Shown here: positions 3,645 to 42,498 of the stretch, one piece after another
Layout of the letters: each line of letters opens with the position of its first letter
Position numbering within the stretch: position 1 is the stretch's first letter
Origin: a virus
Reading direction: 5' to 3' (one strand)
Length of the DNA stretch: 42,498 nucleotides
Virus record (IMG/VR): IMGVR_UViG_3300037670_000028
Coordinates: 1 to 42,498 of that record
Translations under genes and position numbers: made by a program
The notes under the pieces: generated by a model
The model's input: the letters and a program-made list of their open reading frames with translations, nothing else
Databases searched by the model: none
What the model was told of the DNA's origin: nothing

Positions 3645-4204
3645 CACTCACCACCCTTAACGCCGTAGGTGCGTTGGGCGTATTCAGGCGCTTTTGAATC
3701 TGCTTTGTGAAGCGCCATGTCTTCACACTCTGATTGACTATCAAAGTCGTAGCGGCGACAGTCAGTGAAGCCGTCGTAATATCCGTCGGCATAAGCTTTC
3801 CGCGCCACTTCTGCATCGTGTTCAGATAGAGATTGGGCGGGAGGCCGCATTATAACCGACCTTGATTTTCCAGCGTTTTCATTCCATTCGCTATTAAGGT
3901 GACAACTATTCAGTGTTATGAACATTTGCTTTACGTTCTCCACATGCGACGCCAGTTCGTCGCGCTCTCGCTTAACCTGCTCATACATTTCTGCAAAATC
4001 ACAAGCAGTATCCATAGCAGGGCTAGCTAAGTCGCCACGCTTAGTCTGAATGTCTAACTTTTGCTCCAACTCATCACAGCGGGCTTGGAGTTGTTTAAGT
4101 GCCTTATGTGCGTTACTAGCTAACTCTGCAACTTGTAACTGGTCGGTTACAATGCAGTGCGTTTCAAAATTCGCTAACTCTTCAATCAATTCTTTCGTGT
4201 TCAT
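3644..4204 (-). CDS. Hypothetical phage protein, Ea22-like modular type
   Basis: A 186-residue protein with an N-terminal helical part (LASNAHKALKQLQARCDELE) and a coiled-coil centre. The C-terminal segment, SLSEHDAEVARKAYADGYYD followed by GFTDC, resembles terminal modules found on variable early phage proteins. The upstream gene (4204-4764) carries a related linker (NLAENDAEVVSKF), indicating shared modules. The start at 4204 overlaps the preceding stop; a GTG one codon earlier is possible. The function is not known. Confidence 0.66.
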   Translation of the reverse strand: MNTKELIEELANFETHCIVTDQLQVAELASNAHKALKQLQARCDELEQKLDIQTKRGDLASPAMDTACDFAEMYEQVKRERDELASHVENVKQMFITLNSCHLNSEWNENAGKSRSVIMRPPAQSLSEHDAEVARKAYADGYYDGFTDCRRYDFDSQSECEDMALHKADSKAPEYAQRTYGVKGGE

Positions 4205-4764
4205 CACTCACCACCCTTAAGCAGGTGTTCACCCGCCTTAGTAATTGCCGAACGGATTTGCCCAAGCTTGCGTGATGCCTCAACCGCTCCCAACTCAACA
4301 AGCCCGCATACGAATTTTGAAACCACTTCCGCATCGTTCTCTGCTAGGTTTTGCTGTGGGGTTTCTGATAGTGCCGCTTCGGTATCTTTCGACCATTCAT
4401 TGATTTGCTCGGCTATTAAATGGTGGTTTCGGCCACCTGATGCCAGCAAAAACTCTTCGACTTCCTCTGATTGTTCAAAAGCAATAGTGAGTAAATCGCG
4501 CAACCGCTCAACCGTTGCTGCTAGATGGTCGCGCGACAACGCTATCGAGCGCACTTGTAATTCCAAGTCTGCGATGCGTTGTTGTGATAGCTCAAGACCA
4601 TGTTCTAGGCTAGCGATATTGTAGCGATCACACTCTGACTGCTGCTGCGAGTTTCTATTGTTGCTTTCTTGAATACAAACACTGCATGGGTATTCCTCGT
4701 GAACGTGCGGGTGTACCTCACAGTGACCTCTTCTTAATGGTTCTCCGTAAATGTCATAACTCAT
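4204..4764 (-). CDS. Hypothetical modular early protein (duplicated C-terminus)
   Basis: A 186-residue protein. The N-terminus has a Cys/His-rich patch (HCEVHPHVHEEYPCSVC) that could bind zinc. The middle is a coiled coil (ELSQQRIADLELQVRSIALS). The last roughly 25 residues, beginning VEASRKLGQIRSAITKAGEH, are identical for 23 positions to the end of the next upstream gene (4761-5159). The gene overlaps its neighbours by ATGA-type junctions. Function unknown; the shared tail suggests interaction modules swapped between small early proteins. Confidence 0.66.
   Translation of the reverse strand: MSYDIYGEPLRRGHCEVHPHVHEEYPCSVCIQESNNRNSQQQSECDRYNIASLEHGLELSQQRIADLELQVRSIALSRDHLAATVERLRDLLTIAFEQSEEVEEFLLASGGRNHHLIAEQINEWSKDTEAALSETPQQNLAENDAEVVSKFVCGLVELGAVEASRKLGQIRSAITKAGEHLLKGGE
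4207..4284. repeat. Direct repeat, copy 1 (C-terminal module)
   Basis: A 78-bp segment matching 4767-4844 with 8 mismatches. Both copies encode the C-terminal tail of adjacent early genes. The shared tail is almost unchanged at protein level, so most DNA differences are synonymous. Confidence 0.85.
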
Positions 4765-5159
4765 TTCTCACCAACCTTAAGCAGGTGCTCGCCTGCCTTT
4801 GTAATTGCTGAACGGATTTGGCCAAGCTTGCGTGATGCTTCAACGCGCTGGCGCTTCAACTCTCGAATGCGAACACAGCCTGGGCAGACGTTGCCGCCGG
4901 CTAGCTCTTCATCCCAAACATCATCAAAGCTCACCTGGACATCAAAAGGTTGCTCTGCATTCATGTCAGAGACCAAGCGGTACACAAATTCAATGCAGTT
5001 TTCTCTGCTGCTCGGAATGAAAAACGGCTCCCGTTCACCTTTAACTAAACGCGTTGGCACTTGACGCTCACAGTCAATTTGGCCAGCTTCCTTTTTGGTC
5101 TCACGCTTAACGCGAGACCACCGGGCATGCTCCATAGCTAAACGTTTTAAATCAGCCAT
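4761..5159 (-). CDS. Hypothetical early protein with shared C-terminal module
   Basis: A 132-residue protein (start MADLKRLAM). It contains a CPGC motif (GGNVCPGCVRIRELKRQR) and ends in the same VEASRKLGQIRSAITKAGEH tail as the downstream gene. The start at 5159 is chosen over one seven codons upstream because a 58-residue gene, 5152-5328, ends just inside it. The function is not recognised. The tail duplication suggests recent shuffling of this part of the operon. Confidence 0.62.
   Translation of the reverse strand: MADLKRLAMEHARWSRVKRETKKEAGQIDCERQVPTRLVKGEREPFFIPSSRENCIEFVYRLVSDMNAEQPFDVQVSFDDVWDEELAGGNVCPGCVRIRELKRQRVEASRKLGQIRSAITKAGEHLLKVGEK
4767..4844. repeat. Direct repeat, copy 2 (C-terminal module)
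   Basis: Partner of the repeat at 4207-4284. The two copies lie 560 bp apart in the same orientation, so homologous recombination between them would delete one gene in frame. Confidence 0.85.
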
Positions 5160-5328: not shown

Positions 5329-5762
5329 TACGCAGACTCCTCAACTTTCTTAAGCAAGTCATCAACGTCTGGCAGCAACACAAACTCAGCATCGAATTGA
5401 TCGTCGTAATAGCGTGTTACTAGGTCCTCATCAAAAACCATGCGGATACCTTCGGCCATGTAGTTCTTGCCCAGTCGGTCGAACTCTTGCTTGTCGTAGT
5501 AATCGCGGGCAATCTTCATCATGCCCTCGAAGGTATCCCACGCAGCGATTTGACCATTCTTGTGCCAACCTGCCACGCCTGTGCTTTCAGTGCTAAGGGC
5601 GATTAAATCACCACAAAGAAGGCGAAGGGTTGCGCTTAACTTAGAGCGGCTTGCCTGCAGCGCCTGCACCTGGTCGCGCAGTTCAGCGGCTTCTGTTTTC
5701 CAAGCCTCAAGCGCTTCCTCGGTGCTACGAAGCTTGTCTTTTAATTCGGTGATGTATGTCAT
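5328..5762 (-). CDS. Hypothetical coiled-coil early protein
   Basis: A 144-residue protein. Residues 1-50 (ELKDKLRSTEEALEAWKTEA, continuing with LRDQVQALQ) form a clear coiled coil. The C-terminal half is acidic (YYDDQFDAEFVLLPDVDDLL). It overlaps its upstream neighbour by ATGA and its downstream neighbour by TAATG. The function is not recognised. Confidence 0.7.
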   Translation of the reverse strand: MTYITELKDKLRSTEEALEAWKTEAAELRDQVQALQASRSKLSATLRLLCGDLIALSTESTGVAGWHKNGQIAAWDTFEGMMKIARDYYDKQEFDRLGKNYMAEGIRMVFDEDLVTRYYDDQFDAEFVLLPDVDDLLKKVEESA

Positions 5763-6367
5763 TGGACCGTCTCCTTGAGTTGTCCGCGACCGTCAAATAG
5801 GAACTGGCAGCGCTCTCGGTTTGGTTTTGGGATAACCACCACAGCGTCAAGCGCGGGCTTGTGCTTCAGCAGCAGTCGAACGCCACCAAGATGGATGCGC
5901 ATCATGTTGAGCGCACTAGATAGATTCTGCAGCTCTGATTTGGGCGCAATGCGGTAATCAAGGACCTTTTCAATAGCGCTATTGATTAGGTTGAAATCCT
6001 CAAGCAAGGCATCGTGGGCGGTTTTCATGCGGTTGATGATTTTCGCCTGGCGTACAACTGCCGCGCCGCGGTCGCGTTTGCTACGACTAAGCTCGACCAC
6101 CTTGTTGTGCACGTCCTCTTGCGAGTAAGTTCTGGTAAAAGCCAGTTTGCGCAGCTCTGCCAGTACAATATTCACATCAACCAAGTCAACGCGCTCAACG
6201 CCTTTGGCGGTAACAGCGTCAATACTGACGCCGCTGCGCTCAAATGCTGATTGGACAAGTAGAGTGGCCATCATCACCAAGCTTGCACGCTCGTGAAAAC
6301 GTTCCATTTCCATCTGTTGAATCCGGCGGTTTGCATCATTCAAAAGGTCATTCATTGAAGTTGCCAT
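5759..6367 (-). CDS. Hypothetical early protein
   Basis: A 202-residue, largely helical protein of unknown role. It contains a basic central region (VELSRSKRDRGAAVVRQAK) and ends with FLFDGRGQLKETVQ. The ATG at 6367 is preceded by AGGAG at good spacing. It lies directly after the YqaJ-type nuclease gene, so a link to recombination is possible but unproven. Confidence 0.68.
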   Translation of the reverse strand: MATSMNDLLNDANRRIQQMEMERFHERASLVMMATLLVQSAFERSGVSIDAVTAKGVERVDLVDVNIVLAELRKLAFTRTYSQEDVHNKVVELSRSKRDRGAAVVRQAKIINRMKTAHDALLEDFNLINSAIEKVLDYRIAPKSELQNLSSALNMMRIHLGGVRLLLKHKPALDAVVVIPKPNRERCQFLFDGRGQLKETVQ

Positions 6368-32724: not shown

Positions 32725-33128
32725 TGCGAGTACGTGACTGGTCAACACGCTTAATTAGCTTGCTGCAAGAGCGGCGTCTCATGCCGTTCGAGTGGGGTAA
32801 GCACGATTGCTGTTTATTTGCAGCAGATGCCTATATAGCGCTTTGTGATAAAGATTTGGCGAGCGAGTTTCGTGGTCGTTACAAAACTGAGCTTGGCGCT
32901 TACCGAGCTTTAAAGCGCCTTGGCTACGAAAGCGTTGATGATGTACTTAGCGCCAAGCTAGGTGAGCCCAAAGCGACCAAGCTGCCTGAGCGTGGTGACA
33001 TCCTTTTAATTGACTACGAAGGCCAGCTAACCGCAGGCGTTCATTTTAACGCTGCTTGGGTGGTCGGTGAGAACGGCCTTGTTCAAGCGCCGCCATCGTG
33101 GATTGTGAAAGCATGGAGTACTAAATAA
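32724..33128 (+). CDS. NlpC/P60-like tail peptidase (DUF6950-like)
   Basis: A 134-residue protein. The motif FEWGKHDCCLFAADAY carries the likely catalytic cysteine at the start of a helix, and RGDILLIDYEGQLTAGVHFN has the following strand and histidine. Such tail-associated cysteine peptidases cut peptidoglycan stems for DNA entry. It lies between the hub and tail-tip genes, the lambda K position. Active-site pairing is inferred from pattern. Confidence 0.78.
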   Translation: MRVRDWSTRLISLLQERRLMPFEWGKHDCCLFAADAYIALCDKDLASEFRGRYKTELGAYRALKRLGYESVDDVLSAKLGEPKATKLPERGDILLIDYEGQLTAGVHFNAAWVVGENGLVQAPPSWIVKAWSTK

Positions 33129-36100
33129 TGCCTATGGCCATAGCGGCGGTAGCCGTTGGTGTTGCAGCAGGTGTGGTGTATGGCGTAACAGTTGGCATCA
33201 TTGTCGGTATTGGCATGCTTGCACTGCAGAACGCTATTAAGCCAGAAATGCCGAGCGTTGAAGAGAACATCACCACAGCCCAAACCATGACTACGCAACC
33301 ACTGCAGCCAAGGCGTGGCGTATATGGTGAGCAGGTGGTGTCTGGTTCGCTTGTGGGCTATGGCCGCACGAAGCAGGGCGATAAAGACGTGCACGTGTGC
33401 GTGATTACACTTGCAGGCCATCACATTGAAGACGCTGAGTTATACGAAATCAATGGCAATCCACCGCACTCTGGCTGTGTCGCGCATATCTACGATGGCA
33501 CGCAAACTGTTGCATCAGTACACGCCAAATGGCACTGCGAAGGATGGACGGACGACCACGTTGGTCATGGCGTTGCCTATGCGGTTGTTTATATTCCGAT
33601 TGACCCTGACGCCATGTCTGGTGGCTTGCAGAACATCACATTCAAGGTGAAGGGCGCCAAGGTTTACGACCCACGCAAAGACACCACAGTTGGCGGTGAT
33701 GGCCCACACCGAGCTGATGACCCATTGACGTGGGAATGGAGTGACAACAGCATTCTGTGCGCGCTTGATTATGTGCGCTTCAAAGGCTTTCAAAAACTGT
33801 CACTGAACAAATTTGACTTAGCTCACATTGTCGAGCAGGCAAACATCTGTGACGAAGATGTGGAATACAAAGATGCAGACGGCGTCTCGCATTACGAGAA
33901 ACGCTTCACCGCCAACGGCACATGGATGTATGACGAAAGCCCACCGAGCGTTCTGCAGCGGCTGCTTATGTCTTGCGGCGGCAAGCCGTACCGTCGTGGC
34001 GGCAAAATCTATTTGCAGACAGCAAGCTATCATGGCTTAGCGACACTCACGCTCACTGAAAATGATGCCGCTGATATTATTAAAATCTCGCCACACCGTG
34101 AGTTGCGAGACCGCGTTAACTTAGTGCGCGCTAGCTTCGTTGACCCTAAAAAGGGGTATCAACCGACCGATGCGCCGGTGCACAAGAATGCTAATTACAT
34201 TGCATCAGACGGCATGGAGCTCGAAGATGACCTGCAGCTGAGCTTTACTAACTCAAGCACTATGGCGCAGCGCCTCATGAAGTACCACATGGAACGTAAC
34301 CGCGCCGGTATGCGCATTGAATTTCCGTGTAAGGGCAAAGGGTTGTCAGCGCTTGCGGGCAAAACAGTGCGCATCAATTTGCCAAATGAGGGTATCGATA
34401 AAGAATTTATCGTTGCTGAATGGGATTTTGACCGCCGCAAGAAGATAACCAACTTACTGCTTGAAGAAGAATCGCCACTACTTTACTCAGACAGTACGGT
34501 ACCCAATGAAGGTGATATCACACCAAACACAAACCTGCCTGACTTTAACGTGCCAGAGCCACCAGAGTCGGTTGCGTTTACGCTTGATGCGGTGAGTGTA
34601 CACCGCCAAGGCTTCGTGGAATGGTCGCACCCAGTGCCGCGTGCAGTGAGCGAGTACATCATTCGCTTAGTAAAAGATAGCGCTACTGTGGTTGAATACT
34701 CGAGCGTAGCAAGCTCAAGCGTACAGATGCGTCAAGATATCAACGGGCTTGATGCAGGGCAGTACTCCATTGAGATATACGCCAAGAACCGCTTTGAGCG
34801 TTTAAGCGCGCCAGCAACGGTATCCATCACGTTAAATCAACCGTCCGCACCGACCCAATTGTTGATCACTGCTGGCAACTGGGAAGCGACCTGCAAACCC
34901 GTGCTTGCCGGTATCGGTCTTGGCACCATGTTCGAGTTCGCTTTTGGTGATACCACTAATGTTATCGGGCGGGGCGCGTCCATATCGCAACCTGGTCTGG
35001 TACCAGAAACCCAGTACACATTTTACGCGCGCACAATCAACCCGCTTGGCCAGTCAGATTGGGTATCGCAAACGTTCACCACAACCAAGGTGCCCGAGCA
35101 AATCGACCCGCTTCTACCTGAATCGCAAATCATCCAGGACATCAATGACACACTCACCGGCATTGGTGAGCGCATTGATGAAGAAGCAGGCCGTATCAAT
35201 GACACCGAAGAAAGCATTGAAGAGCTGGTGGCGTCAACGCGCAACATAAGTTACATGCTCGATACTGAGGGCGTGGACCGCGCCGCAAGCGATATGCAGG
35301 CTATGTTGGCCATTGCGAACCAGTCAGCCGCGCGCCTCGAAATGGAGCGCCGGCAACGCAGTGGCGAACGCCTGATTGGCGCTGTGGTTGAGGTCAACCC
35401 AGAGACGGGCGAAATCACTAACCTGGCGTATAGCTACACCGATAGCGCATTTACGCAAGCGGCGTTACGGATGGACGGCATTGACGGCTCAATCAATGCG
35501 GCCATTGAGCGCATTTCAATGAATGAGGGCGCTGTTGAGAACTTATCGAGCGAACTGACGTTGCTGCCTGGTCTCATTGAAGCGCGTGCGACAGCTATTG
35601 TCGCAAGTTCAATCAGTGCGCTACAGCCTGCGCATGCGTTTAACTTTTTTGACTCGACGCAGCATTGGGAAGCAGTCACGGGCACCATTGCACCGGTGAA
35701 TAACACCATTGAACTAACTCACGGCGACATTGAGAATACGCGCCTTTTCTATGATGCGGCCGAGAACCCAGTGCTGCGCCTTGAGGTTGAGCGGCTGGCG
35801 GGTACCGGCTGGAGCGGAACCGTCATTGTCTATTTCGATGGTGGCGGCTCGCAGTCTTACCCTGGCATCATTGATGCGGTCGAAGCCGGTGAGCTAGTTG
35901 TACGCAACGTGGACTTCCGAGGTCTTGAAACCTATGCCGGCATGATTAACGGTATGCGCATTGAGCTTGGTGCATCCGCAGCGGATGAGTTCCGCGTGAA
36001 GTCGCTGACCATTGGCAAGCCCGATGCGGCCATGCAGCAACTTGAGCAAGTGGAATACCGCGTCAATGATGCATTTATCGCCATTGATGGCCTTGAAGGC

Positions 36101-38800
36101 CAAATAAACTTGCGCGTAACCTCAGAGCACTATAACAACAACACCGTGACCTTTGGCAACGTTGAGCAGACGCTTGATGCCATTGAGTCATACGCGCAAA
36201 TCAAGGCGACTTACACGACGCTGAACACTGATGGCACCATCGCTAAAGCAAATGCGGCCGCAGTATTTATCGATGGACAAACGGGCACCATCACGCAAAT
36301 CGTGCAGACGATTAACAACCGTGTCGATGATGTTGAAGGGCAAGCGCAAGCGGCTTCACAAACCGCAAACCAAGCAATGAGTGAAGTGGATGCCGCCAAT
36401 GGCCGCATTCGTAACCAGGTGATTTCGACCACGCAAAATGCTATCGCTGATGCTGAAAACGCGGTTGCAGCAGTGCTTGAGGCTTATCAGGGCTTCTTAC
36501 AAGGTCAAGAGCTTGCCAATACCCGCATCAGCCTGGCATCCGCTCGCCGCGACCTGCAAGCGCAAAGTACTGAGCTGTCAGCCTTTGCCAATGAAACACT
36601 TGAACTGCTGGCCGTTACAGCGCAAGAAGCTGAAGCACTAGAGGCGCGGGTAGACCAAGCGTTCACTGCTATCAGTAATGCTGAAGCCGCTCTTACCCAG
36701 GCACGCATATCACTGCAATCGCAAATCTTAGGCGCCGGTACCGACGCCACACGCAAAGCAACAGCCAATGCGCTTGACCTGCTCAACGCCCGGATTGGCT
36801 ATTGTGAATTAAACGGCTCACCAACTGGCCATGAAACCCGTGAAGCCTGCGAGGATGCCGGCGGCACATGGATATCAGCGCCACTCGCTGAAGCGCTACG
36901 CAACGTGCAGGTGCAGACCGAAGACGGCAGCTATGCGCGCGTGTCACAGCTTGCCCAGGCGTTCGTTGATGATGATGGCCAACTCACTGCAATTGGCTCT
37001 ATGCTGACCGACAACGCAGGACGCATCAGCGGCATGCTGAACCGCAATACAGGCCTGCAAAGCTCGCTCGACTTCATAGCCGGCGAAACTCGTATTGGGG
37101 ACGTGGATGAGCAAGGCAACTATATCCCGCTATTCTGGCTTGATGCAGCGGCGGGTGTGTTAGCGATTAAAGCGCGCCTTGAGCTCACTGACGGCAACTC
37201 CATCACAACGCTTGATGACTTAAATAAAGCAATAGATACCAATCTAATTCGACCAACGTCACACTGGGTTCCCGGAACAAGTGGCTCACAAGGGCCATTC
37301 TCACGAAATGGCACCGATGCAGAGAACTCAATCGTATTAAAGGCAGGTCCTTTTGGTATCGATGAGCCAGTCTGGGTGACGGCAGGTGGCAACAATGACG
37401 GCGATGGCGGCTGGAACGTCAATGTTCCGATAGACCCGAACAAAACCTATCGGCACATTGTATGGATGAAGCAAGTTGGCGGCGCTGGCTACCAAACTCT
37501 GTATTTCGGCTGTTCACAAACCAACACAAAGAACCTTGACGGCACGACCAACAGCAACCCATACCATTGGAATGGTGACTTACCGTCACTTGATAAGTGG
37601 TATGTGCTGATTGGTATTGTGCACAAGCAATCCTACGCCGGTGGCTATTCTGGCATATCCGGCATATACGACCCAGCCACCGGTGAAAAAGTTGTTAGCA
37701 TCACTGAGTTCAAAAGTGGCTCAGCAACAACACAAACCCAGAGGGTATATCGCTATTACGCTACAAATATATCAAATCAAGCAGAGTTTGCTCGCCCACG
37801 CTTTGAAGTGGTTGATGGCACGGAGCTCAGTCTAAATTCCGTTATCGGTAGCTCTTCTGGTGCACCTGGTCCAGTAGGGCCTAGCGGCGCAGGTTTCTAC
37901 GGAGGCACATGGCCAGACATTAATTGGTCGCTTGGCTGGAATCGCTTTGTTGAAGTTGCTGGACGCAACCCAATCCCCGGCGATATCCTCGTGCAGACGC
38001 GCTCGGATGGCACGAGCTCAAGCGCACAAAAACGCAACGCCGCGAATAACGGTTGGGAGCCGGTGGCGCTGCAAATAAACGGCTCTATGGTTGCCACCGG
38101 AACCATTGCTGGCGATAAGCTCATTGCCGGCACATCACTCAACGCTCCGGTCATCATGTCTGGCCAAATCCAAATGGTGGGCGCAAGCCACATGAAAATA
38201 ACCACGGCCACGCCATTTGGACCGAACGACCTGATTGAGTGGTACGGACCTAAGAACACCTACACGTACAACAGCAGTACTGGCACGGTAAAATTTGACG
38301 GACTCACCAAGGCCAACGCAATCACGTACCTAAGTTCAACCGGTCAAGCCTATTTCGGTGGTTCAATCACCGCCGGCACGCTCAAGAATGCGGTGCAGTC
38401 ATCACAGCTGGGCAACACCGACGTTACTGTTGGTCCGTTTGGCTCTAACGGCGGCATCATTGAAATCAAATGCTCAGTGAGTGCGTCACGCTCGACCGGG
38501 TTGGTCTCTGGCTCGTGCCCAAGCCCAGCGCCACCAAACCCATCGGCAACACTGAAGCTTTACCGCGTCACATCAGGTGGTGAAATCCTTGTGGCCACAC
38601 AAGGCGTTTCGGGCTCTTACACCTGTATGCAAGAAGGCCCTGAAATGATTGAAAGCTGGAACTTGAGCGGCAGCTTCACTTACACCGATAACTTACAAAC
38701 AACAAGCTCTCGAACCTACCGGCTCGAAGTAACTAATAACACAACGCCATTGCTGCCTAACGGCAATCAGCGCTTATCACTTATAACTGAAGAGGCATAA
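33128..38800 (+). CDS. Tail tip/central fibre protein, lambda J-like
   Basis: A 1890-residue receptor-recognising tip protein. It starts with a hydrophobic Ala/Val/Gly segment (about 3-35), typical for J-like proteins, followed by the hub domains (VSGSLVGYGRTKQGDKDVHV; TWEWSDNSILCALDYVRFKG). Fibronectin-type segments lie around 480-660. Long helical repeats (ASQTANQAMSEVDAANGRIR) come between 690 and 1200. Short Cys motifs (YCELNGSPTGHETREACEDA), a single collagen-like GAPGPVGPSG and a C-terminal part with GSMVATGTIAGDKLIAGTSL follow. It precedes the DGR target, which may attach to its distal end. Confidence 0.9.
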   Translation: MPMAIAAVAVGVAAGVVYGVTVGIIVGIGMLALQNAIKPEMPSVEENITTAQTMTTQPLQPRRGVYGEQVVSGSLVGYGRTKQGDKDVHVCVITLAGHHIEDAELYEINGNPPHSGCVAHIYDGTQTVASVHAKWHCEGWTDDHVGHGVAYAVVYIPIDPDAMSGGLQNITFKVKGAKVYDPRKDTTVGGDGPHRADDPLTWEWSDNSILCALDYVRFKGFQKLSLNKFDLAHIVEQANICDEDVEYKDADGVSHYEKRFTANGTWMYDESPPSVLQRLLMSCGGKPYRRGGKIYLQTASYHGLATLTLTENDAADIIKISPHRELRDRVNLVRASFVDPKKGYQPTDAPVHKNANYIASDGMELEDDLQLSFTNSSTMAQRLMKYHMERNRAGMRIEFPCKGKGLSALAGKTVRINLPNEGIDKEFIVAEWDFDRRKKITNLLLEEESPLLYSDSTVPNEGDITPNTNLPDFNVPEPPESVAFTLDAVSVHRQGFVEWSHPVPRAVSEYIIRLVKDSATVVEYSSVASSSVQMRQDINGLDAGQYSIEIYAKNRFERLSAPATVSITLNQPSAPTQLLITAGNWEATCKPVLAGIGLGTMFEFAFGDTTNVIGRGASISQPGLVPETQYTFYARTINPLGQSDWVSQTFTTTKVPEQIDPLLPESQIIQDINDTLTGIGERIDEEAGRINDTEESIEELVASTRNISYMLDTEGVDRAASDMQAMLAIANQSAARLEMERRQRSGERLIGAVVEVNPETGEITNLAYSYTDSAFTQAALRMDGIDGSINAAIERISMNEGAVENLSSELTLLPGLIEARATAIVASSISALQPAHAFNFFDSTQHWEAVTGTIAPVNNTIELTHGDIENTRLFYDAAENPVLRLEVERLAGTGWSGTVIVYFDGGGSQSYPGIIDAVEAGELVVRNVDFRGLETYAGMINGMRIELGASAADEFRVKSLTIGKPDAAMQQLEQVEYRVNDAFIAIDGLEGQINLRVTSEHYNNNTVTFGNVEQTLDAIESYAQIKATYTTLNTDGTIAKANAAAVFIDGQTGTITQIVQTINNRVDDVEGQAQAASQTANQAMSEVDAANGRIRNQVISTTQNAIADAENAVAAVLEAYQGFLQGQELANTRISLASARRDLQAQSTELSAFANETLELLAVTAQEAEALEARVDQAFTAISNAEAALTQARISLQSQILGAGTDATRKATANALDLLNARIGYCELNGSPTGHETREACEDAGGTWISAPLAEALRNVQVQTEDGSYARVSQLAQAFVDDDGQLTAIGSMLTDNAGRISGMLNRNTGLQSSLDFIAGETRIGDVDEQGNYIPLFWLDAAAGVLAIKARLELTDGNSITTLDDLNKAIDTNLIRPTSHWVPGTSGSQGPFSRNGTDAENSIVLKAGPFGIDEPVWVTAGGNNDGDGGWNVNVPIDPNKTYRHIVWMKQVGGAGYQTLYFGCSQTNTKNLDGTTNSNPYHWNGDLPSLDKWYVLIGIVHKQSYAGGYSGISGIYDPATGEKVVSITEFKSGSATTQTQRVYRYYATNISNQAEFARPRFEVVDGTELSLNSVIGSSSGAPGPVGPSGAGFYGGTWPDINWSLGWNRFVEVAGRNPIPGDILVQTRSDGTSSSAQKRNAANNGWEPVALQINGSMVATGTIAGDKLIAGTSLNAPVIMSGQIQMVGASHMKITTATPFGPNDLIEWYGPKNTYTYNSSTGTVKFDGLTKANAITYLSSTGQAYFGGSITAGTLKNAVQSSQLGNTDVTVGPFGSNGGIIEIKCSVSASRSTGLVSGSCPSPAPPNPSATLKLYRVTSGGEILVATQGVSGSYTCMQEGPEMIESWNLSGSFTYTDNLQTTSSRTYRLEVTNNTTPLLPNGNQRLSLITEEA

Positions 38801-38803
38801 ACC

Positions 38804-40354
38804 ATGTACTGGACTGCAACATCCATTAACGTCACAGCCAACAATGCATTTGTTGACGTCACCACCGGCGATGACCTGTCGCTGATTCGCCCGCTTAGCC
38901 TGCTGTTCGTAGCCGGCTACTTACCCGTAGTGGTCAAGCGCGCTACCGCCACGCAAATTGAGCTCATGGAGCCATGGCCAAACGTCACCGACAATGGCCG
39001 CCGCGCTATCATCGCTAAGACCGCCGCTGAGTTTGATGCCGCCGTGGATGCACTCAATGCTGCAACCACAGCAACTAGCGAAGCGGGCGAAAGTATTGAC
39101 ACCTTCCTGCAAGGCGTGAGCGAGTTCTCAAGTCAGGCGCTCGGCAGTGCTGATGCCGCCGCATGGCGCACGAAACTCGGCCTTGGCTCTGCAGCGACAA
39201 AAGCCGTCGGTGAAGCTGACGCAAGCCTAGTCGATAACGCCCGTTTGAAAGCTGTTTTAGGTACCGATTCAACGCTCATTAAAAAAGTGGCCAGCCTTAA
39301 CGCATTAAACTTCATTCCGGACACCCTGCGCAAGCAGGTCGAACTCGCTACCCAAGGCAAAAACACCGTGCTGTACAACGCTAATGGCGACCCAAGCATC
39401 ATGTTTCCGGTGTACAAGTTCCGCTATGAAGACCTGGGCTTTGCCGGGAACCCATTCGGCACCGGTGTGGCCACTGCATTCCTGAAAGGAGGTGTTGAGA
39501 AATCTGAAATCTTTATCGGCTGCTTCCAAGGGCGCGTGCATAACGGGCAGGTCGTGTCATTACCAGGGCTCGACCCAACCACCAGTATTAACTTCGATAA
39601 TTCAAAATCGAACTGCCAAGCCAACGGTGCCGGCTGGCACTTGATGACAGAGCACGAGTGGGCAGCTATAACTCTTTGGTGCATGGCGAATGGGTACCAA
39701 CCACGCGGCAACACCAACTACGGGCGTGCACACGATGCAACGCATGAAGTAGGTCGCCGCCAAGACGGTGGCATTGCGGGTGATGCCTCTGGTGCTGCAC
39801 GCATCCTAAACGGCTCTGGCCCCGATGCATGGCGACATGACGGCTCACCATTTGGTATTGCTGACCTTGTTGGTAATGTGTGGGAGTGGACGGACTTACT
39901 CAAATCCGTGCGCGGCCAAGTCATTTGTGCACCTGATAATGACTTCGATCTCGGCGAAGCAAATTGGGTCGCACAACAGGCGTTTTTCGACTCACCAAGC
40001 ACTGGCACAAGCGGCAATTTGGGCTCGCCAACATTGGCCGATGCAGTGACGAACTACGGCGATGCAGACCCTGATACAGACGCTCACAATGCGTACAACT
40101 CAATCAATCCATGGTCAAGCATGGCGACATCTGGCAGCTATGTCAGCAATGAGTTAATGAAGCGCCTGATGATTGAGCCAGCCGGAATCAGCCCGCAAGG
40201 CTATTTCTACGTGCGTAACTATGGCGAGCGTTTCCCATTTCGTGGCGGCTATTGGACCGATGGCAGCCATGCTGGCCTCGCCGCGCGCGCTCTGACCTAT
40301 TCGCGCTCGTACTCGTACAGCTACTTCGGGTTTCGCCCCGCTTTTGTCGCTTGA
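38804..40354 (+). CDS. DGR variable protein, FGE-sulfatase / C-type lectin fold tail fibre
   Basis: A 516-residue protein whose end is diversified by the retroelement. The N-terminal 185 residues look like a tail-fibre attachment part (WTATSINVTANNAFVDVTTG, helical KTAAEFDAAVDALNAATTAT). Residues about 200-516 form a formylglycine-generating-enzyme-type C-type lectin domain (DLVGNVWEWTDLL at 354-366, ending FRGGYW to GFRPAFVA). Compared with the template, residues 483, 485, 486, 489, 496, 498, 499, 503, 504, 505, 507 and 508 are changed: the exposed ligand-binding surface. It directly follows the tail-tip gene, so it is the likely host-range determinant. GAGG precedes the ATG. Confidence 0.93.
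   Translation: MYWTATSINVTANNAFVDVTTGDDLSLIRPLSLLFVAGYLPVVVKRATATQIELMEPWPNVTDNGRRAIIAKTAAEFDAAVDALNAATTATSEAGESIDTFLQGVSEFSSQALGSADAAAWRTKLGLGSAATKAVGEADASLVDNARLKAVLGTDSTLIKKVASLNALNFIPDTLRKQVELATQGKNTVLYNANGDPSIMFPVYKFRYEDLGFAGNPFGTGVATAFLKGGVEKSEIFIGCFQGRVHNGQVVSLPGLDPTTSINFDNSKSNCQANGAGWHLMTEHEWAAITLWCMANGYQPRGNTNYGRAHDATHEVGRRQDGGIAGDASGAARILNGSGPDAWRHDGSPFGIADLVGNVWEWTDLLKSVRGQVICAPDNDFDLGEANWVAQQAFFDSPSTGTSGNLGSPTLADAVTNYGDADPDTDAHNAYNSINPWSSMATSGSYVSNELMKRLMIEPAGISPQGYFYVRNYGERFPFRGGYWTDGSHAGLAARALTYSRSYSYSYFGFRPAFVA
40227..40342 (+). repeat. DGR variable repeat (VR)
   Basis: 116 bp at the 3' end of the variable protein gene, aligned without gaps to the template repeat 592 bp downstream. 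It differs at 14 positions: 13 correspond to adenines in the template (40250, 40257, 40259, 40268, 40289, 40290, 40296, 40298, 40310, 40313, 40316, 40322, 40325) and one is G in the template and A here (40237, synonymous). Seven adenines became T, four C and two G. The last 17 bases (about 40326-40342) are identical and GC-rich, the expected initiation-of-mutagenic-homing (IMH) end. Confidence 0.96.
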
Positions 40355-40377
40355 TGTCTTGGTCTTGAATCCTGCGG

Positions 40378-40395
40378 GCTGCGCGAGAGCGCAGC
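40378..40395 (+). promoter_or_regulatory. DGR target-site hairpin
   Basis: GCTGCGC (40378-40384), loop GAGA, GCGCAGC (40389-40395). It lies 36 bases after the VR end. Bordetella phage DGRs have such a GC-rich hairpin or cruciform with a GRNA-type tetraloop downstream of IMH, which increases target use. GAGA fits that loop rule. Confidence 0.75.
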
Positions 40396-40417
40396 TTAAC
40401 GAACAATGAGGTACAAC

Positions 40418-40807
40418 GTGCAGCAACAACCCATATCGCAGCAGCAAGTGGATAAGAACCATAGCGATTTAGTCATCATTCAGAAGGTCGAAGACATGAT
40501 CGCCTATGGTTACCAGGCACTGTCGCATTTTCCGAAAGCGGAGCGTCACGTCACGAGCGCAGAAATGCGCCAATCTATGTGGCGCCTGTTGCGGTTGATG
40601 GTCATTGTAGCGAAGCGGTACCACAAGAAAACGACATTGCAGGATGTGGATGCAGAGGTTGAGTTGCTGCGCCGGCAAATACGTTTGGCGCATCAGCTCG
40701 GCTTTTTGCCACCCAAGAAGTACGAGGTGTGGAGTAGACACCTCAATGAGATTGGTCGCTTCGTTGGAAGCTGGCTGAAGAAAGTAAACGGGTTTAATAA
40801 GGGCTAA
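40418..40807 (+). CDS. avd: DGR accessory variability determinant (Avd)
   Basis: A 129-residue helical-bundle protein: VIIQKVEDMIAYGYQALSHF, SAEMRQSMWRLLRLMVIVAK, TLQDVDAEVELLRRQIRLAH and KKYEVWSRHLNEIGRFVGSW are four amphipathic helices with many basic residues. Avd binds the reverse transcriptase and the template RNA and is needed for mutagenic homing; the Bordetella form has 128 residues. The GTG at 40418 is chosen because GAGGT lies five bases upstream; an ATG at 40406 (133 residues) lacks one. It sits between target gene and template repeat, the standard order. Confidence 0.9.
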   Translation: MQQQPISQQQVDKNHSDLVIIQKVEDMIAYGYQALSHFPKAERHVTSAEMRQSMWRLLRLMVIVAKRYHKKTTLQDVDAEVELLRRQIRLAHQLGFLPPKKYEVWSRHLNEIGRFVGSWLKKVNGFNKG

Positions 40808-41099
40808 GTGCTACCTATAGCGTTTCCCGTTTCGTGGCGGCAATTGGAACAATGGCAGCAATGCTGGCCTCGCCGCGCGCAATCTGAACAATTCGCGCTC
40901 GAACACGAACAGCAACATCGGGTTTCGCCCCGCTCTTGAGGAAAGTCAGAAGCGGTATGGCCAAGGCTGTATCGACAGAACACCTTCAAAAGGGCGCTTG
41001 GTCCTCACCAGTAAACGGTGAAATATATACAGCCATGGGTAGGCTAGTAGGCGGGCTCTGACCGCTTTCCCATGGCGCACTTTAACAACAGGAATCGAA
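40808..41099 (+). ncRNA. DGR template RNA region (TR plus spacer)
   Basis: A 292-base noncoding stretch between avd and the reverse transcriptase. It comprises the template repeat and a spacer of about 160 bases with visible stems: TCACC/GGTGA (41005-41021), and a longer GCCATGGG/CCCATGGC (41032-41039 with 41069-41076) that encloses GCGG/CCGC (41051-41054 with 41062-41065). In Bordetella phage the RNA spanning the template, the spacer and the end of avd is the substrate and primer for cDNA. The same role is inferred. Confidence 0.7.
40819..40934 (+). repeat. DGR template repeat (TR)
   Basis: 116 bp matching VR. If read in the VR frame it encodes the unmutated surface with ten AAY (Asn) codons, one ACG, one AGC and one ATC. 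All ten AAY codons, the ACG and the ATC have changed in the VR; AGC has not. There are 24 adenines between 40842 and 40917, of which 13 differ in VR. Confidence 0.96.
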
Positions 41100-42143
41100 G
41101 TGAAGACATACAAAAACTTATACCAAGAAATCTATCAATTCGACCGACTCCATCAGGCCTACTTGCGTGCGCGTATCGGCAAGCGGCAGCGCCGCGAAGT
41201 GCTGCGCTTTGAGCGCGACTTAGAGGGCAACCTGATACAACTACAGAACGAGCTCATGTGGGATATGTACCAAACTGGCCCTTACCGCATTTTTCACGTG
41301 CACGAGCCCAAGAAGCGCATGGTGGCCGCGTTGCCGTTCCGTGACCGCGTATTGCAGCACTCGCTTGTTAGCGTCATTGAGCCCATCTTTGAAAAGCGCT
41401 TCATTCATCACAGCTACGCATGCAGACCAGGGCGCGGCATGCACATGGGTGCCAACCAAGCACAACAGTGGCTGCGTGAGGTAAAGCGCGAGCATGGCAA
41501 TGTCTACTGTCTGAAAGCTGATGTGGCCAAATACTTCGCAAGCATTGACCAGGGCATCTTGGTCACGCTGTTAGAGAAGAAAATCAAATGCCGGCGAACC
41601 ATGAGCCTATGCAAAGAAATCATGAGCACCTGGCACGAGGGCTTGCCCATCGGCAACCTCACCAGTCAGCTTTGGGCGAACGTCTATTTGCATGAGCTCG
41701 ATGTATTCGTTAAGGAAACACTGCAAGTGCGCCGTTATATCCGCTATATGGACGACTTCGTCATCGTGCACCACGACAAGAAGTTCCTGCAAGGCCTGCG
41801 CGTAGTTATCGAGAGCTTCTTAGCGCAAAAGCTCAAGCTACGGCTGAACAACAAAACCCAGATATTTCCCGTGGGCACCAAGAACGGGCGCGCACTGGAT
41901 TTCCTCGGCTATCGCATGTGGACTACACACCGACGCCTACGCCGTGAGTCAGTGAAGCGCATGGCCAAGCGCATGGAGCAGATGCGCAAGCAGTACGCAC
42001 GCGGGGAAATCAACCACCCTGATATTCAGCGCCGCATTGCCAGTTGGCTAGGCCACGCGCAGCACGCTGAGTCATACACCATTCGCAGACTTGTCCTAGG
42101 CAAGGCCGTATTCAAGCGCGAACACCCCGAATTAACACCGTGA
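41100..42143 (+). CDS. DGR reverse transcriptase
   Basis: A 347-residue reverse transcriptase that copies the template RNA with adenine-specific errors. Catalytic residues are Asp141 in CLKADVAKYFASID and Asp218/Asp219 in RYIRYMDDFVIV. The DGR-specific motif IGNLTSQLWANVYLHELD (184-201) replaces the QGxxxSP of group II intron enzymes. The N-terminal RPFRDRVLQHSL-like segment ALPFRDRVLQHSLVSVIEP and the thumb DFLGYRMWTTHRRLRRESV are present. It starts with GTG after AGGAATCGAA. There is no maturase or endonuclease domain, as expected for a DGR. Confidence 0.96.
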   Translation: MKTYKNLYQEIYQFDRLHQAYLRARIGKRQRREVLRFERDLEGNLIQLQNELMWDMYQTGPYRIFHVHEPKKRMVAALPFRDRVLQHSLVSVIEPIFEKRFIHHSYACRPGRGMHMGANQAQQWLREVKREHGNVYCLKADVAKYFASIDQGILVTLLEKKIKCRRTMSLCKEIMSTWHEGLPIGNLTSQLWANVYLHELDVFVKETLQVRRYIRYMDDFVIVHHDKKFLQGLRVVIESFLAQKLKLRLNNKTQIFPVGTKNGRALDFLGYRMWTTHRRLRRESVKRMAKRMEQMRKQYARGEINHPDIQRRIASWLGHAQHAESYTIRRLVLGKAVFKREHPELTP

Positions 42144-42153
42144 GGACATAACC

Positions 42154-42498
42154 ATGTTTACCTACATCTACCAAGGCAACACCTATACCAACACCGATAT
42201 CGCCTACATGCGCAACCTAGGCATGGATGACGACGCCATTGAGGCCGTACACAGCCAAAAGGAATACGAACTAGAGCGAGCCAAAGCCGGCGTTCGCAAC
42301 GAGTGCGAAAAGCGCATCACCAAGCACTGGAGCCCTGTTGGCCAAATCAATGCCGCATTGGGTATTTACAGCGCCGCAGAAGCCCAAGCCTGCGTTGATT
42401 GCATCAATGCACACCGAAGCGCATGCAATGCACTTCTTGAGCGCAGTGACTTGTTGGATGTGAATTACACCGATGATACGCATTGGCCATCAGCGTAA
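42154..42498 (+). CDS. Hypothetical protein after the DGR reverse transcriptase
   Basis: A 114-residue protein: FTYIYQGNTYTNTDIAYMRN, then LGMDDDAIEAVHSQKEYELE and ECEKRITKHWSPVGQINAAL. It contains three cysteines and an Ala-rich C-terminal helix (ACVDCINAHRSACNALLERS). It starts ten bases after the reverse transcriptase stop behind GAGGA and ends at the window edge. The position suggests either the last gene of the DGR operon or a tail-fibre-associated protein. No family is recognised. Confidence 0.7.
   Translation: MFTYIYQGNTYTNTDIAYMRNLGMDDDAIEAVHSQKEYELERAKAGVRNECEKRITKHWSPVGQINAALGIYSAAEAQACVDCINAHRSACNALLERSDLLDVNYTDDTHWPSA

Follow-up and report, generated by a model that had tools for sequence, protein, structure and literature searches.

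The well-known Bordetella-phage type of diversity-generating retroelement (DGR) is that of Bordetella phage BPP-1, a podovirus whose DGR combines the genes mtd, avd and brt with a template repeat (TR) and has been reconstituted in laboratory E. coli (PMC12875486). Hairpins of phage DGRs have a GRNA loop on a stem of 7-10 bp, lie 4-34 bp from the variable repeat (VR) and, in BPP-1, must be there for homing to be efficient (PMC3240598). TaqVP, the variable protein of a Thermus aquaticus prophage DGR, has a C-type-lectin fold with its variable residues at the putative ligand-binding site (PMC6328139). In the Pseudoalteromonas phages ACA1 and ACA2 the tail attachment part and the antireceptor are separate proteins and an adjacent DGR varies the antireceptor; the two phages infect different Pseudoalteromonas species and are set apart chiefly by the antireceptor, mainly by its VR (PMC10612066). 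The sequence analysed here, called the window, is the whole stretch of 42,498 bases of IMG/VR virus record IMGVR_UViG_3300037670_000028 (positions 1 to 42,498). The element at its right end (38804-42143) is a complete Bordetella-type DGR of a temperate phage and apparently a working one; its mechanism is almost certainly the one set out below. A preliminary description, made from the letters alone, had proposed a complete DGR in canonical order, and every part was found within a few bases of the span given there. The parts are as follows.

38804-40354, plus strand: DGR target (variable protein) gene, 516 residues, with an N-terminal part of ~170 residues and a C-terminal TaqVP-type C-type-lectin domain.
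40227-40346, plus strand: VR, near the 3' end of the target gene, 88% identical to TR.
40326-40342, plus strand: invariant 3' block of VR, 17 nucleotides (nt), TCGGGTTTCGCCCCGCT, resembling an initiation of mutagenic homing (IMH) site.
40379-40396, plus strand: hairpin/cruciform GCTGCGC-GAGA-GCGCAGC, 32 nt 3' of VR, with a perfect GC stem and a GAGA loop.
40406-40807, plus strand: gene of Avd (accessory variability determinant), 133 residues (Pfam bAvd, 9.5e-33; phrog_3206 'Avd protein of DGR', 1.5e-40).
40819-40938, plus strand: TR, non-coding, just 3' of avd, the adenine-biased repeat of VR.
40933-41076, plus strand: structured RNA of the spacer between TR and the reverse transcriptase (RT) gene, Rfam RT-14 (RF02921), matched over its full length (1-144).
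41100-42143, plus strand: DGR RT gene, 347 residues, GTG start (phrog_1423, 1.8e-135; motifs IGNLTSQ and YMDD).

The VR and TR form a direct repeat of 120 nt whose copies are spaced by 592 nt. The homing tract that was scored covers the 116 nt before the fixed 3' boundary, in which TR has adenines at 25 positions. VR and TR differ at 14 sites of this tract and 13 of them fall on TR adenines (hypergeometric p = 1.2e-9), which is the specific relation expected of a DGR repeat pair. The next difference past the tract, VR 40343 (T) against TR 40935 (C), is common to all near relatives and therefore marks the 3' limit of transfer. The IMH-type GC block that precedes it, TCGGGTTTCGCCCCGCT, is present in the window only at the VR and TR ends, even with 3 mismatches allowed. 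In the frame of the target gene, 14 codons have template adenines (10 AAY and 4 with a single adenine). Adenine variation can reach no stop codon in the target, and the ceiling is ~1.5e14 proteins. A second VR or TR was looked for in the window and none was found; the only other repeat of at least 40 nt that came to light there is one of 84 nt at 4.2-4.8 kb, unrelated to the DGR.

The RT belongs to the DGR class, as first proposed from its IGxxxSQ motif. The motif reads IGNLTSQ at residues 184-190, conforming to [IL]GxxxSQ, and its residues G-N-L-T-S-Q are invariant across 19 aligned sequences. The closest solved sequence is 8ub7_A (2.6e-68), an RT whose structure was determined together with a DGR Avd. 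The window Avd, the accessory protein of this class of DGRs, matches in turn the Avd chain 8ub7_B (1e-4) and Bordetella Bbp7 (4dwl, 8e-6). The RVT_1 domain alone is common to all RT classes concerned, and the window enzyme could for this reason be taken for an RT of the retron, Abi or group II intron type lying beside a chance repeat. The chance of this is negligible: group II intron RTs (5.5e-20) come 48 orders of magnitude in E-value behind the DGR RT, Avd, the RT-14 RNA, the hairpin and the adenine bias are all present, and the adenine-specific relation between TR and VR refutes such a reading.

The two nucleic acid structures of the element also find their counterparts in other loci. The hairpin fits the published ranges of loop type, stem length and distance from VR (PMC3240598), and 18 of 25 other loci scanned likewise have a perfect stem closed by a GRNA-type loop of 4 nt. 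The spacer 3' of TR scores 55.4 bits against RF02921 (gathering threshold 48.1; E 5.6e-6), and RT-14 lies at the equivalent position in six of the relatives scanned (L002, L004, L017, L029, L030 and L031). Over 15 distinct sequences its structure keeps 95.6% of the pair cells, and compensatory changes occur in 15 of the 32 pairs. Covariation scores 0.437, whereas shuffled controls score 0.215 and slid ones no more than 0.104. The spacer RNA structure is thus real by Rfam match and covariation; the proposal of a structured spacer stands on these two, not on single-sequence folding, whose minimum free energy is unremarkable (z = -1.07). The coincidence of RT-14 with the TR-RT spacer suggests that this RNA is a scaffold of the DGR template RNA. 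More precisely, and with moderate confidence, RT-14 may be viewed as the conserved 3' scaffold of template RNAs, counterpart of the cDNA-priming BPP-1 spacer, in a lineage of marine gammaproteobacterial phage DGRs that is exchanged between phages with long tails and phages with contractile ones.

Comparison of the window with related loci reveals how VR changes while TR is kept. Four near relatives carry a complete DGR (L002, L004, L029 and L030) and have RTs 96-99% identical to that of the window; L003 equals L029 over the repeats. The TRs of the window and these four are 1-5 differences apart and their VRs are pairwise 13-22 sites apart, mostly at template adenines. Each of the four VRs differs from its own TR at 8-17 tract positions, all of them adenines (p = 2.5e-6 to 3e-14). 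Non-adenine markers of TR reappear in the VR beside it: index 81-83 reads TTC in both repeats of the window and L002, and CGT in both repeats of L029, L004 and L030, while T is found in both repeats at index 92 in L002 only and at index 15 in L004 only. Such recurrence is expected from repeated TR-to-VR copying. More distant pairs of near-identical copies show the same pattern. L005 and L006 (69% RT identity to the window), which come from different metagenomes, have identical TRs and differ at 0 of 4268 nt outside VR, and 13 positions differ within it, 13/13 at template adenines. VR differences lie at template adenines in 11/11 cases between L013 and L014 (1/2584 differences elsewhere) and in 12/13 cases between L014 and L015 (1/3457 elsewhere); in L008 and L009, VR is likewise variable at template adenines and the rest is near-identical. 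Of 28 further RT loci, 23 yielded a TR/VR pair with adenine bias. The population signature anticipated in the preliminary description, a VR that varies at template adenines beside a fixed TR, was thus seen between near-identical copies among relatives, on which this comparison was made. Judged by these alignments, information has passed from TR to VR in the lineage of the window. Among 26 genomes of the host genus, a near-identical RT was found only in the SN11 and Pseudidiomarina genomes, with no further complete copies, and a search for DGRs in Idiomarina found no paper in the literature collection used.

These comparative data are consistent with mutagenic homing that depends on RT and RNA. 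In the mechanism proposed, the avd-TR-RT region would be transcribed and RT and Avd would start cDNA synthesis on TR using the structured RT-14 spacer 3' of it. RT would misincorporate opposite template adenines, and the cDNA would be exchanged for the VR at the target gene's 3' end, TR remaining unchanged. Homing would rely on the invariant GC-rich 3' block of VR and on the GAGA-loop hairpin that follows it. Fourteen codons of the C-type-lectin domain would be varied in this way, and the variation might allow the phage to follow or switch receptors.

The C-terminal part of the target matches PDB entry 5vf4 (TaqVP; phmmer 1e-64, profile 7e-117), and the Pfam match of the protein is FGE-sulfatase (1.2e-6). 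An AlphaFold2 model, with low confidence for residues 1-172 and usable from about residue 173, retrieves TaqVP in a Foldseek search (E 6e-29, TM score 0.77 on the target side), followed by variants of Mtd with a weak match (E 0.02). Homology and model agree with the lectin fold proposed at the outset and support a C-type-lectin domain, within which VR lies with its AAY codons. TaqVP-like proteins also occur in Vibrio lentus phages, annotated as sulfatase-modifying factor enzymes, and in Klebsiella phages (records H52-H56 and the Klebsiella records). The N-terminus of the window target is longer than in the P2-type relatives and plausibly serves a different attachment; a search for the N-terminal 170 residues joined to other C-termini recovered near relatives only.

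Surface and membrane proteins are frequent among the DGR targets of cells (PMC8144416), and the target could accordingly be made from the prophage as a cell-surface protein that alters the surface contacts of the lysogen, rather than be part of the virion. This is very improbable for a gene of the late operon that starts 3 nt past the stop codon of a gpJ-like tail tip gene, as the preliminary description had noted of its place. The target, in addition, matches tail proteins in PHROG, in one case weakly, and its homologues in P2-like phages occupy the tail-fibre position and are annotated as antireceptor. By analogy with those proteins, the target is most likely located at the tail tip, with the bacterial surface as its ligand. 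Tropism switching through its variation is suggested by the examples of BPP-1 and the ACA phages.

Some observations weigh against a working DGR with a virion target. The sole tract mismatch that is not at an adenine lies close to the repeat's 5' end, at 40237, where TR has G and VR has A. Current activity of the window copy would follow from comparative data on relatives rather than on its own population, and a virion location of the target from its place after the gpJ-like gene and its homology to annotated antireceptors. The DGR is, moreover, dispensable in some lysogens, since a sister prophage has lost avd, TR and most of RT. Idiomarina loihiensis SN11 (NZ_CP074112.1) has two related prophages, L029 with the whole DGR and L035 (also IMG/VR L027) without it. 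L035 retains an intact target of 518 residues and the hairpin, and lacks avd past the first codons, TR, and RT to about residue 272; the junction of this deletion, within the L035 region 5700-6300, is at a GTGGA microhomology, and in the window GTGGA occurs at each of the two ends. L035 is in itself a natural allele of DGR loss, with a complete copy elsewhere on its chromosome.

The L035 VR has non-adenine changes and does not match the TR markers of L029. Diversification of L035 in trans by the L029 DGR was considered and is not supported: its VR reads TTT where the L029 TR reads CGT, and the non-adenine differences number 4 in all, not counting the fixed one outside the tract. The loss in L035 and its VR changes, together with the frameshifted RT of the ACA1 prophage copy (PMC10612066), would agree with a DGR that was once active and is now silent in the prophage of the window, its VR being a frozen variant. 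All reading frames and RNA features of the window DGR are intact, though, and its RT remains nearly identical to those of four relatives that each have their own VR, so that silencing appears unlikely. The preliminary description had held that a broken RT in related prophages would refute its reading; one occurs in L035, while the window and the four complete near relatives are intact. The DGR of the window is clean, complete and probably active, in an Idiomarina-type temperate phage.

The rest of the window is temperate-phage sequence. Its left part codes for an integrase, a CI-like repressor with S24 peptidase, SSB, RecT and a YqaJ exonuclease, and its right part is the late operon. Head genes of Mu type (portal, 2.7e-103; F protein, 4e-23; gp36, 8.5e-32) are followed by genes for a tail terminator, a tape measure, DUF6950 and the 1,890-residue gpJ-like tip. 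The backbone is thus composed of a Mu-like head and a lambda-like long tail, in keeping with the Mu-like head genes, flexible tail and departure from the BPP-1 backbone first described. Two genes flank the DGR.

33128-38800, plus strand: gpJ-like tail tip/central fibre gene, directly upstream of the target (phrog_31 'central tail fiber J', 1.2e-76).
42154-42498, plus strand: open reading frame (ORF) of 114 residues 3' of RT, conserved beside the DGR in near relatives and still there in L035, the prophage with the deletion.

The 114-residue ORF has no Pfam or PHROG match, and a search for it in phages devoid of a DGR recovered near relatives only. Segment 37219-37857 of the tip gene is without a nucleotide counterpart in several of the near relatives (L002, L003, L029), both flanks being 84-90% identical; it looks like a swapped segment, a possible second source of tail variation. 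The 84-nt repeat mentioned above (4201-4284 and 4761-4844, 88% identical) lies at the 3' end of each of two adjacent minus-strand genes, whose products have the common C-terminal peptide VEASRKLGQIRSAITKAGEHLLK.

The general picture of DGRs is left unchanged by this element. What it adds is a probable tie between a curated structured RNA, RT-14, and a DGR template transcript, and material for comparative work on receptor switching outside Bordetella: naturally occurring VR variants and a sister prophage deprived of the machinery. The window and BPP-1 share the order target-VR-hairpin-avd-TR-RT, RTs that are 38.5% identical over 94%, a GRNA-loop hairpin 3' of VR, and an Avd, that of the window matching the Bbp7 structure. 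They differ in the target, which is TaqVP-like in sequence with Mtd only a weak fold match, and in the Mu-type head and lambda-like long tail of the window. The target is of the same lectin-fold family as TaqVP, from which it differs by its additional N-terminal part.

The closest copies are the prophages L029, of I. loihiensis SN11, and L030, of a Pseudidiomarina indica metagenome-assembled genome. Their RTs are 99% and 97% identical to that of the window and their targets 91-93%, they have the RT-14 RNA and the hairpin in common with it, and their VRs are different variants, with 8 and 16 adenine changes from their own TRs. The combination of a Mu-type head, a long tail and a DGR is not unique to this lineage. 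Vibrio phage vB-Vv-ZX4290 (PV485168), from another host genus, has the same order of Mu-like major head, tail terminator, tape measure, DUF6950, tail tip, target, Avd and RT; its target covers 100% of the window query with 31% identity, and its RT is 46% identical.

Homologous DGRs and targets are also found in phages with P2-type contractile tails (L031, L006 and OR438928, designated L037). In L031, from Vibrio injensis, genes for gp25, Baseplate_J and Tail_P2_I lie upstream of the DGR, and L006 apparently has similar ORFs. Pseudoalteromonas phages ACA1, a member of the Peduoviridae, and ACA2, as well as Vibrio phage VHML, have targets 43-45% and RTs 37-49% identical to those of the window and, unlike it, contractile tails of P2 type. 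Their occurrence there suggests that the target and its DGR move as a module between tail types.

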